This document shows, in pieces, positions 9,029 to 13,133 of a stretch of 49,977 bases of DNA. Position 1 is the first letter of the stretch. Every line of letters starts with the position of its first letter. The position numbers and the translations under genes were made by a program. Origin of the DNA: a virus. Under the pieces are notes generated by a model, which was not told the origin of the DNA, made no database searches, and saw only the letters and a program-made list of their open reading frames with translations. Location: positions 1 through 49,977 of IMG/VR virus record IMGVR_UViG_3300024903_000001; one strand, written 5' to 3'.

Positions 9029-11131
9029 TCACTTTTTGTAGCAGGGGCCTTCCCAGGCTTCCGCCGCTACCGGAAGGCCCGCCATCCATGGCTCGCCCTC
9101 CGTCAAAAACGCGCCGAACTCGTCGGCTGATCCAAAACCGATATCGGCCTCCGCGACGTTCTCATCGTGCACCGTCAGGCAGAGATCGTAGCCGGCGGCC
9201 TCCGCCCGCTTCATCCCGCCCGCCATGACGTCACGCGCCGCGGCCTGGACACCGTTCTGGAAGAGCAGCCCGCCATAGGCGCCCTGCTCGGACCACTTCT
9301 TGGTGAAGCTGTCGACGGCCCAGAAATAGAGCTTATCCTTGAAGACCGGCTCGCCATTCGAATTCTTGAATGGCGTCTCGGTCGAGCGCACCGACGGGAA
9401 GGCGTAGGCGATGACCCGGCCGGACGGCAGGCAGCAATGCAGCCACGAGCCAGCCTTGCGGTAGCGCAGCTTCCCCGCCGTCTGGAGCGTGCCAGGCTCT
9501 TTGACCGCTGCGATCGCTGCGTCCTCGACCGTGCGCCACATCGCAGCCGTCGCCGGGTTGGCCTTCCGCCAGGCGATCTTGATGAGCTCCGCCGTCGTCC
9601 AGCGGTCGTGAAAGACGCCCGACGCCTTGCCCCTGGCTATCCACGCATCCTCGGCGGCTTCGATCGCCTCCGGCGACGCGCTGGCGAGCACGGATTCGCG
9701 CGCATCCAGCAGGTCGAGCCCGTAGTTCTTCGCCATTTTGAGCAGCGCGCCAGCGCCACCGGCGAAGCCAAGGGCGAGAATCGCGACCTTGCCGACGTTG
9801 CGGCGCGGGTCGGCCTTGGTGATGACGCCATCCTTAACGCGATAGATGCCCGTCGCGGTGACGATGTAGATGTCGGGGCCTTCCTTGCGATCGGCGCGGC
9901 GGAATGCATCGAGCACATCATGTTGGCCACCGAACCACGCCGTCATGCGCGCCTCGATCTGGCTCAAGTCGGCGGCGAGCATCTTGCGGCCGGGCGGCGC
10001 CGCGATCATGCCACGGATAGCGTCGCTCACGACCGTCATCGCGGGGCCGTAGAGCATCTCGATGAGCTCGGCGTTCCCCTTCCGCAGGTCCGCGACGATA
10101 TCGTCCATCGGAGCGTCGACCGTCGGCCGAGGCAGGTTCTGTAATTGCGCACCCCTAGCCGCCCAACGGCCCGTCGACGCGCCGTGGAACTGCAGATTGC
10201 CGCGCATGCGGCCGTCGGCCTGCCGGCACGCCAGCAGCTTGCCGATCTTGGCGACGGAGGTCTTCGCACCTTCCTGCCGGATCTCCAGTGCGCGGCGCAC
10301 CGCGGGGCTCAGGTCGTCCCGCACCAGCAGCTCGGCGAGATCGTCCTTGGCGACGGAAGACGCATCTACGCCATGCTGGCGGCAGAACGCGGTGAGTTCG
10401 CCGACATTCGAGACGCCACGGACGGCCATGCCTGTGACCTGACGCATTTCCTGGTCAAGGCGCAGTTGCGTCTGCGCGACGACCTTCTGCGCCTGGAGGC
10501 AGAGGTTCTCATCGATGAACGTGCCGCGGTCATTCATGCGCTGGTCCAAGAACCAGAGTTCGAGCTCGGATTTCTTGAGCTGCGGCAGGATCGCGGCGAT
10601 GGCCTGCTCGGTTTTCACGTCGGTTACACAGTAGCTACCGAGCCGCGCGATCTTCTCGGCGTCATCATGCCAGTAGAGGCCATCCGGCCGCTCGCCCTTG
10701 CGCGCCTTCCTCGGACGGCAAAGTTGCAACATCACCCTCTTGCCGACGTCGTCCTTCGTGATCGGCAGCTTGAGCGCCGGCGCGGCCTGCTCCAGCTTGC
10801 CCGGCAGACCCATGGCGTAGGCCTGCGTCATGGTGCAGCGATACTGCTCGAGCTTCGGGACCGGCCAGCCGTATTTCGGGCCGAGCACCTGCCGGATGGC
10901 GAGTCTCTCGAAAGCGGCGTTCCAGGCCGAAACGAGGCCGCCGGCTTCGATGTGCCAGCGGACGCGATCGGGGCAGGGCTCGCCGGGCCGCCAGAGGGCG
11001 GGCTCCTCGTTGTCGAAGGCCCACGCGGCGCACCAGATGTCGGTCGTTTCGGAGTCGAAATAAATATATGCGTTGGTTTTCGTGAGGTCGCAGGCGGATT
11101 TTGTTTCGAAGTCGATGCGGAGCGTGCTCAT
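9029..11131 (-). CDS. Family A DNA polymerase with 3'-5' exonuclease domain
   Basis: About 700 residues. The N-terminal DEDD exonuclease begins with RIDFETKS (Asp7, Glu9), and further exonuclease motifs follow near residues 75 (AWNAAFERL) and 170 (YCVTDVKTE). The polymerase domain has motif A (DLSQIEARM, near 384), motif B ([13 protein letters not shown], near 449) and motif C ([10 protein letters not shown], near 654). This is the phage-type Pol I seen with primase-polymerase proteins. I chose the ATG at 11131, which overlaps by ATGA the stop of the alternate-frame ORF at 11128. A GTG at 11143, directly after the methyltransferase stop, is the alternative and adds four residues. It is the last gene of the leftward early block and replicates phage DNA. 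Confidence 0.93.
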
Positions 11132-12165
11132 GCCAGCATCCACTCAGCGGTCAAGGCAGGAGATGAAGGCGACCGCAGCTTCCGCGTTGATCGCGTTGCC
11201 GTAGCCGCGCAGGCGTCCCACTCGGGCGGGAGCCCCATGAGCCAGCGGGAATGTGCCGGGTTCAACTGGCCGCCACTTTCCATCCCGGCAGAAGAGCCAG
11301 TCAGCATCTCGCCAGAGACCGTTCGTCGGGCCGGGCCTGCGAGCGCCGTTACCGCCCCAAGATCCGGCCCCTTGTTCCGCATGGCTTCGATGATCGCCCC
11401 GGCGTGCGTCCGCACGCCCTTGTCCGCCAGCGCTGCCGTCGGCGTCGGCCAGCCCGATAACTGAACCTGATGGTCCAGCGTCGTCACCGACTGGCCGCAG
11501 GCCCGCCCCTCCTTGCGCTTCAGCGCCTGTTCCGGCGTCCCGCCCGGCGCCGAGGCGTTCGGCGTGCCCCAACCGGCCAATACCGCCGCATGATTGAGCG
11601 TGACATTCGGCGTCGTGAATGAGGGGGAAGGATGCCGAAGTGCGTCCGTCGTCGTCGTCGTGGGCCAGCCCGCCTGCCAGACCGCCCGGCCGAGCAGCGC
11701 GTTCTCCGGTACGTTCGGGTTGAACGATCCGTCCTTCCAATCTCGCGTCGTAGGCGTCGGCCAGGCCGACGCCTCGCTTTCCGACCCACCAGAGCCGTTG
11801 CCTGATGTGGGGCGCGCCGACGCCCGCAGCGCAGAGATCGACCGCCCCGCTGGCGTAACCCGTTCCTTCCAGGTCAGCTTGTACAAGGTCGAGCCAAGCG
11901 AGGCCGTCCTTGCTCGCAACCTGCTCACCAAGGACGACGTCAGGACGGCACTGGCTGATGAGCCAGTGGAAGTGTGGCCATAGGTGCCGCTCGTCAGTAA
12001 ACCCGCCGCCTTTGCCTGCCGCGCTGAAAGGCTGGCATGGGCAGCTTCCGGTCCAGACGGGTCGGCCGTCGGCCCATTCGGCGCGTCGAAGCGCATAGGA
12101 CCAGACGCCGATACCGGCGAAGAAATGGCACTGCGTGTAGGGTCGGAGATCGTCAGGTCGGACAT
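11128..12165 (-). CDS. Conserved out-of-frame ORF within the cytosine methyltransferase gene
   Basis: A 345-residue ORF in a different minus-strand frame, lying almost wholly inside the methyltransferase gene. It starts [10 protein letters not shown] with GGAG 9 nt upstream. Recognisable blocks are SGSxxSASA-like [56 protein letters not shown] and [15 protein letters not shown] recall this architecture from many phage and prophage hypothetical proteins, and its LMGLPxxW and WPTPT blocks occur in the C-terminal part of some phage cytosine methyltransferases. Its stop overlaps the polymerase start as ATGA, the coupling used throughout this operon. It may be a real dual-coded protein or a conserved shadow frame. 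Confidence 0.5.
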
Positions 12166-12274
12166 CGGCAATGCTCCGTTCGTCAACGTCGCCGGGCGCG
12201 ATATGGCCGGCGGAAATGAGGTTGCGCAGCCATTGGGCCGCATACGGGTCGAACTCGTTGTAGTAGGCCGTCAT
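11144..12274 (-). CDS. DNA (cytosine-5) methyltransferase
   Basis: A 376-residue enzyme with motif I FFAGIG (51-56), the catalytic PCQ loop (GSCPCQPFS, Cys80), an ENV-like GEQV (116-119), motif VIII QRLWW (159-163), and a C-terminal motif IX/X region ([20 protein letters not shown] near 350-370). The middle (170-310) is Gly/Ala/Asp-rich and low in complexity, as expected if another frame constrains it. It transfers a methyl group from SAM to cytosine C5, probably to protect phage DNA from restriction. It overlaps the GcrA-like gene by 4 bases (ATGA). The reading frame of the 345-residue ORF at 11128-12165 lies inside it. Confidence 0.9.
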
Positions 12275-12555
12275 GCGACACCGCGCTGAGCGAAGCTCTC
12301 GACGACGTCCTCACGCGGCCCGTCCGAGGACACCGACGTCTTGACGAACCCGCCACGCTTGGTCTCGCCGTTGAAGTTCTTCGCGCCAGGCACCCACGGC
12401 TCGGAGCGGCGGGGCATGTAGGCGAGCTTGCAGTGGCCGGCGCAGTACGGCTTGCCGGGCTGGCGGCGCTCGCCGCAGAAGCCGAAATCGGGACGTTTCG
12501 GGTCGCCGATCGGCCATTTGCAGTCGTCGGGGTTGAGGTCGATGAGGGTTTTCAT
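12271..12555 (-). CDS. GcrA C-terminal-domain protein (sigma70-interacting domain only)
   Basis: A 94-residue protein. Residues 4-45 (LIDLNPDDCKWPIGDPKRPD, then FGFCGERRQPGKPYCAGHCK) match the C-terminal domain of GcrA, the alphaproteobacterial cell-cycle regulator, with its Cys/His cluster. In GcrA that domain binds sigma70 domain 2, and the N-terminal domain binds DNA. Here the DNA-binding half is absent and the protein starts with the sigma-binding part. It overlaps both neighbours by ATGA (adenine methyltransferase before, cytosine methyltransferase after). A stand-alone domain could redirect or titrate host RNA polymerase. The family call is strong; the role is inference. Confidence 0.82.
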   Translation of the reverse strand: MKTLIDLNPDDCKWPIGDPKRPDFGFCGERRQPGKPYCAGHCKLAYMPRRSEPWVPGAKNFNGETKRGGFVKTSVSSDGPREDVVESFAQRGVA

Positions 12556-13133
12556 GCCAGCATCTCCTCTGCGGAGATCGGCGCCGGCTTAACCAAGGGG
12601 CGGGCAAGCGGCGGTGAGGTGCGATCCCACAGGAACCACGCGCAATCCATGGTCGGGGCGCCACGGCCGTCGAAGTCGAGCCGCCATGTCAGATCCCGGC
12701 GCGCGTAAGGCGCCCATCGGTCCCAGGTCTTGAGCCGGCTGGCGGCGTTCCAAAAGGAAGCCTTCAGGAGCAACGCGAGGTGTGCCGCACCGAGCTCGTC
12801 AGCACGTTCGATGAACTGTGCGGCGAGCTTGAAGGGCGGGTTGGTGATGATGACCTTGCGCTGTGGTCGTGCGATCTGCAGCGCAGTCGGGCCGAGAAAA
12901 TCCAGGATCTGGCCGAAACCTCTGTGGATCAAATCGGTGGCAACGACATCACGACCGGATGCCCGCAGCACTCGCGCCATGGCGCCGTCACCGCAGGCCG
13001 GTTCCCAAATGGTTTTCGGCCAATCCGCGATCAACGGGAGGAGCGCGATCGTCGCCTCGCGGGGCGTCGGGTAGAAGTCGTTCTCGCGCCGGTTGCCATT
13101 GCCGCCGGCGATCATCACACCGAGCGACGTCAT
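12552..13133 (-). CDS. Phage DNA adenine-N6 methyltransferase-like protein
   Basis: A 193-residue SAM-dependent methyltransferase. It has a phage-type DFYPTP lead-in (19-24), the SAM-binding motif WEPACGDGAM (43-52) and the catalytic NPPF motif (98-101) typical of amino-methyltransferases. A later WFLWDR block is also common in this phage family. Target sequence unknown; no separate recognition domain is visible. ATGA overlaps with the TSCPD gene before and the GcrA-like gene after show translational coupling. Together with the GcrA domain it could interact with GANTC methylation control in the host, but that is speculation. Confidence 0.82.
   Translation of the reverse strand: MTSLGVMIAGGNGNRRENDFYPTPREATIALLPLIADWPKTIWEPACGDGAMARVLRASGRDVVATDLIHRGFGQILDFLGPTALQIARPQRKVIITNPPFKLAAQFIERADELGAAHLALLLKASFWNAASRLKTWDRWAPYARRDLTWRLDFDGRGAPTMDCAWFLWDRTSPPLARPLVKPAPISAEEMLA

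Follow-up and report, generated by a model that had tools for sequence, protein, structure and literature searches.

To our knowledge, long conserved overlaps between genes on the same strand are rare, and few are known in which both frames have a clear function. In M.AquI, a tandem-split methyltransferase encoded by two genes, the second gene carries the recognition part together with motif X. M.EcoHK31I recognises YGGCCR, and its beta gene is nested within the alpha gene in a different frame. This two-polypeptide C5 methyltransferase bears motifs I–VIII and X on the larger subunit and motif IX on the smaller one, and its predicted recognition domain has been assigned to the larger subunit (PMC3404938). 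Compared by this published description, the viral locus analysed here may resemble M.EcoHK31I in having motifs I–VIII and X on the large chain and a proposed motif IX on the small chain. However, the recognition domain of M.EcoHK31I is predicted in the large chain, whereas here the middle of the large chain is unconstrained and predicted to be disordered, and the putative recognition modules lie in the nested frame. Furthermore, enzyme activity has been reported for M.EcoHK31I, whereas the present pair is known from sequence and models. When EcoHK31I-like restriction-modification loci were sought in E. coli genomes and plasmids, all loci inspected were prophage or phage-like, and no report of nested phage methyltransferases was found in the open-access literature searched.

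The window, i.e., the whole stretch of DNA analysed (positions 1–49,977 of IMGVR_UViG_3300024903_000001), contains two minus-strand frames, f1 and f2, that share approximately 1 kb. The first-pass annotation had described two open frames over this kilobase, one of them a C5 methyltransferase, as well as a GGAG ahead of the f2 start and an ATGA in which the f2 stop and the DNA polymerase start codon overlap. The coordinates and the matches of f1 to Pfam PF00145 (E 5e-10) and PHROG 363 (E 1e-86) confirmed the former, and the latter two elements were found in the sequence as described. The features of the locus are as follows.

11144–12274, minus strand: f1, proposed alpha subunit, a C5 cytosine methyltransferase with motifs I–VIII and X (PF00145, PHROG 363, AF2 model)
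11128–12165, minus strand: f2, proposed beta subunit, in the +1 frame of f1 (openness, dN/dS 0.25–0.59, PHROG 1008 and 31772)
12174–12177, minus strand: Shine–Dalgarno GGAG of f2, within Arg-Ser codons of f1 (start-site counts)
12163–12165, minus strand: start ATG of f2, spanning the f1 codons GAT GTC (start-site counts)
12032–12121, minus strand: f1 motif I (FAGIG) to catalytic motif IV (PCQ) (sequence, alignment)
11786–11815, minus strand: f1 motif VIII region (sequence, alignment)
11315–11794, minus strand: middle region, f1 unconstrained and predicted disordered, f2 constrained (dN/dS of both frames, f1 pLDDT)
11335–11763, minus strand: four f2 modules with WPTP, WPTT or WGTP as their first residues, putative modules for target recognition (alignment, single-chain homology)
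11206–11274, minus strand: f2 block, proposed motif IX (near-invariant in 132 f2 proteins)
11189–11218, minus strand: f1 motif X (alignment; followed by the C-terminal helix)
11128–11131, minus strand: ATGA, shared by the f2 stop and the start of a family A DNA polymerase (sequence; PF00476 downstream, E 1e-13)

The f1 gene encodes 376 aa (ATG at 12274, TGA at 11144), and f2 encodes 345 aa (ATG at 12165, TGA at 11128), with GGAG 8 nt upstream of its ATG. An alternative upstream ATG at 12243, where the frame is still open, would give an f2 of 371 aa; the start at 12165 was favoured because of its Shine–Dalgarno site and the homologues. The f2 stop overlaps the DNA polymerase ATG at 11131–11129, and the f1 ATG likewise overlaps the stop of the ORF upstream. 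That 94-aa ORF (12271–12555, minus strand) matches the C-terminal part of GcrA, a cell-cycle regulator of alphaproteobacteria (PF07750, E 6e-18). A further 193-aa ORF (12552–13133, minus strand) with FYPTP and NPPF looks by eye like phage adenine methyltransferases and had no Pfam match; in a related plasmid (L551), an adenine methyltransferase gene is located directly upstream of a nested f1/f2 pair. In a megablast search with positions 1–25000 of the window, the best matches listed, which came from phages of Pseudomonas, Edwardsiella and Aeromonas at about 81% identity, all fell on the methyltransferase locus at 11174–12274, a concentration that dual coding would favour.

Besides the PF00145 domain, f1 contains motifs I, IV, VI, VIII and X of the C5 cytosine methyltransferases, as assigned from the alignment. 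The AF2 model of f1 comprised a mostly confident catalytic core (residues 1–170) that matched M.HaeIII and M.HhaI (E about 1e-7), a stretch of very low confidence that lacked secondary structure (residues 176–324) and, after motif X, a confident C-terminal helix (pLDDT about 90). With pLDDT < 50 over most of residues 176–324 and a dN/dS of 0.92 in the middle region, f1 appears to have neither a target-recognition domain of its own nor motif IX. The f2 product matched PHROG 1008 (E 7e-34, residues 10–327) and PHROG 31772 (E 3e-34). These two families are the f2 family, which is thus already annotated, both under the label "DNA methyltransferase"; the label omits that the family is the second frame of PHROG 363. 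The "Mte8-like protein" of K1 phages also belongs to the f2 family, and the records of K1G and PhiXhv-28 annotate both frames, whereas only one frame is annotated in most other records examined. Searches with f2 profiles against Pfam and PDB sequences gave no convincing match. The AF2 model of f2 alone had low confidence (pLDDT 64) except for a helix and hairpin at residues 70–117, and it had no matching fold among solved structures. The alignment used for structure prediction was built without the rows from the annotated phage collection.

The openness of f2 was examined at 85 methyltransferase loci, namely the window, the 80 best viral loci by homology to f1, and N15, Haboob, epsilon15 and BcepC6B. 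Locus counts from the viral collection are samples of best matches and give prevalence as a lower bound. Homology to f2 was found in the +1 frame at all 85 loci, and the frame was open at nearly all of them. In total, the +1 frame contained 293 stops against 517 expected from shuffling of synonymous codons within each gene, whereas the control +2 frame contained 1352 against 1291 expected. For the window gene alone (GC 0.67), the openness of the +1 frame was only moderately unlikely under the same shuffling (p = 0.017). In larger locus sets, f2 was broken at L010 and L128, f1 at L068, L184/L260, L296 and L312, and both at L358; other apparent frame breaks were artefacts of ORF choice. The f2 of N15 is shorter than the others. 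In Pseudomonas phage PMG1 (L371, 1300–2280), f1 is apparently frameshifted just before the f2 start, f2 is intact, and the record annotates f2 only. At L085 (2435–5725) and L080 (2610–4214), the f2 ORF continues in frame downstream (1096 and 534 codons, respectively), possibly as a fusion. No truly stand-alone f2 gene was found, a tandem split being the only separate form encountered.

Selection on each frame was estimated by classing changes according to their effect in both frames (a simplified OLGenie approach) in 112 independent pairs. These pairwise estimates (kappa 2, uncorrected for multiple hits) gave dN/dS values of 0.15 for f1 and 1.04 for f2 upstream of the f2 start, which served as an internal control. 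The corresponding values were 0.23 and 0.59 in the N-terminal overlap, 0.92 (0.78–1.06) and 0.25 (0.20–0.30) in the middle region, and 0.39 and 0.34 in the C-terminal overlap, and the bootstrap intervals of f2 in the overlap excluded 1. In the middle and C-terminal regions, changes that were synonymous in f1 and altered f2 had about one fifth the rate of changes synonymous in both frames. Among close pairs (93%–99.9% identity), changes at the three f1 codon positions accounted for 15%, 5% and 80% upstream of the f2 start, the pattern of a normal gene, and for 58%, 25% and 16% in the middle region, where they fit a gene whose frame is f2. In the wrong-frame (+2) control, NN/NS exceeded 1 in all regions; SN/SS was below 1 but less low than in the true frame, with few doubly synonymous sites behind these values. 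The dN/dS of f2 and the codon-position pattern indicate that f2 is protein-coding and that the middle of f1 is unconstrained. The frame f2 is conserved and under purifying selection beyond that imposed by f1 (0.25 and 0.34, against 1.04 in the control). Free f1-synonymous variation that places stops in f2, which the first-pass annotation had named as evidence against a second gene, was not seen, and f2 stays open.

The start site of f2 bears its own mark of selection. The Arg-Ser codons of f1 spell GGAG at 130 of 244 loci (0.53), where the codon use of each gene predicts 0.16. The f1 Asp codon is GAT, which provides the ATG of f2, at 211 of 250 loci, compared with 37% GAT in the rest of these genes; both counts ignore the relatedness of the loci. 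The start codon and Shine–Dalgarno sequence of f2 are under selection. Together with the openness of the +1 frame and the dN/dS values, this supports true overlapping genes, one of the options considered in the first-pass annotation.

The single-chain enzymes of actinophages offer a closer view of what f2 may be. In Mycobacterium phage Rita gp76 and its relatives, LLPTP modules, the block LAPAFSEWMMGWPAGWV and motif X all share a single frame, and most of the variation in the module region falls on the third codon position. Rita gp76 shares with the present locus a C5 catalytic domain, PTP modules, a motif IX-like block and motif X, whereas Papez gp46, another single-chain actinophage enzyme, has the catalytic domain, the motif IX-like block and motif X without PTP modules. 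Unlike the nested pair, both are one chain in one frame, with a +1 frame that is not open along the gene and with normal codon variation. In Gordonia phage Float294, the same recognition and motif IX segment forms a tandem second gene. Float294 gp62/gp61 therefore resembles the present locus in having two genes, the second with the recognition part, but its second gene also carries motif X, and the genes overlap by only 14 bases. This tandem-split methyltransferase is found at L468 (883–2116), where the second gene consists of recognition modules, the motif IX-like block and motif X.

Using hhalign, f2 profiles matched the single-chain segment with E values of 6e-8 and 9e-13. PHROG 1008 matched all three layouts, i.e., nested f2, Rita residues 196–388 (2e-61) and the second gene of Float294 (5e-51). 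On the strength of these profile matches, f2 is homologous to that part of single-chain methyltransferases which covers target recognition and motif IX. The near-invariant f2 block aligns with LAAAFxEWMMGWPAGWV directly before motif X of the single-chain enzymes, and it was assigned to motif IX because of this position. Its match to motif IX of M.HhaI was marginal (E 0.06 and 0.015) and in the expected register.

The nested arrangement extends to a second clade. In L374, a podovirus methyltransferase of this distant clade, the +1 frame also contains WPTP modules and the block GGQLNPLWVEWLMGFPPEW. Searches with the +1 frame of L374 gave at least 80 further loci and those with its f1 at least 10 more, and at nearly all distant-clade loci with the f2 motif a methyltransferase was present in the preceding frame. 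Across 76 genes of this clade, with GC down to 0.41, the mean longest +1 run was 274 codons against 128 expected, whereas the +2 control was 65 against 68 expected. The selection pattern was repeated, with middle-region dN/dS values of 0.94 for f1 and 0.36 for f2 in 19 independent pairs. Compared between the clades, the f2 profiles gave a match at E 1e-29, part of which is due to shared f1 motifs. Furthermore, five of eight annotated phages taken from weaker f1 matches share the nested layout, and their hosts are Paenibacillus, Acinetobacter, Vibrio, Bacteroides and Lactobacillus. The nested layout thus appears to occur in many unrelated phages and to be unannotated or misnamed in most records examined.

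Given that f1 has no recognisable recognition domain or motif IX and that f2 is homologous to that segment, the two frames look like subunits of one enzyme. The locus very probably encodes a two-subunit C5 methyltransferase written in two overlapping frames. In such an enzyme, f1 (alpha) would provide SAM binding and catalysis (motifs I–VIII) as well as motif X. The beta subunit, f2, would be translated from the same mRNA, starting at its own internal Shine–Dalgarno sequence and ATG within the f1 coding region, and would contribute motif IX and the WPTP modules for target recognition. The two subunits would then assemble into one active enzyme. The f1 stretch between motifs VIII and X may result from the coding of f2 there and be accepted as a flexible linker. 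The probable ancestor of this arrangement is a single-chain enzyme of the kind seen in some actinophages, whose segment for recognition and motif IX would have moved into the +1 frame. We infer the translation of f2, the assembly of the heterodimer, the location of specificity in f2 and the direction of evolution. The overlap proposed in the first-pass annotation thus stands, although the unconstrained middle of f1, the homology of f2 to a recognition and motif IX segment and the resemblance of the two frames to two subunits had gone unnoticed.

Alternatively, f1 might be a self-sufficient methyltransferase and f2 an independent protein with an unrelated role, e.g., in counter-defence. The absence of an assignable fold in f2 alone would suit such independence, and the link between f1 and f2 has been drawn from sequences and predicted structures; however, f1 has no ordered recognition domain or recognisable motif IX, and f2 is homologous to exactly the segment missing from f1, which makes this reading very unlikely. 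Similarly improbable is a programmed frameshift, in which ribosomes would move from f1 to f2 after motif VIII to yield one fused chain and f2 would have no start of its own. Such a shift would restore the single-chain order of motifs I–VIII, recognition part and motif IX, but the fused product would be without motif X, which is in f1. Moreover, f2 is constrained upstream of any shift point (dN/dS 0.59 and 0.37 in the N-terminal overlap) and its GGAG and ATG are selected; these two observations disfavour a frameshift fusion and equally speak against the frameshift-linked methyltransferase variant suggested in the first-pass annotation. That f2 is a widely annotated shadow frame, an untranslated by-product of conserved methyltransferase motifs read in +1 in GC-rich DNA, is extremely improbable and was rejected on the +1 stop counts, dN/dS and the wrong-frame control, since, even though f1 motifs force part of the f2 conservation in the N-terminal overlap and the window gene on its own departs only moderately from expectation, f2 rather than f1 is constrained in the middle region with f1 codon position 3 the least variable, the f2 start and Shine–Dalgarno sequence are selected, +1 frames are open even at GC 0.41–0.50, and segments homologous to f2 lie in frame in single-chain enzymes.

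With the two-subunit enzyme as the preferred reading, both frames of a long overlap can be explained as parts of one enzyme, and an extant single-chain form is available for comparison. The origin of overlapping genes and the cost of dual coding could therefore be studied directly at loci of this type. In many records containing this type of methyltransferase, half of the enzyme may be missing or wrongly named, and reading the f2 modules as recognition modules yields a prediction of where many phage methyltransferases carry their sequence specificity. We see a roughly even chance that a large class of phage C5 methyltransferases consists of obligate two-frame heterodimers of single-chain ancestry, with interchangeable WPTP specificity modules in the nested subunit. 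If so, module recombination would re-target the enzyme while leaving the catalytic frame intact, and the single-chain ancestral form would still be extant.
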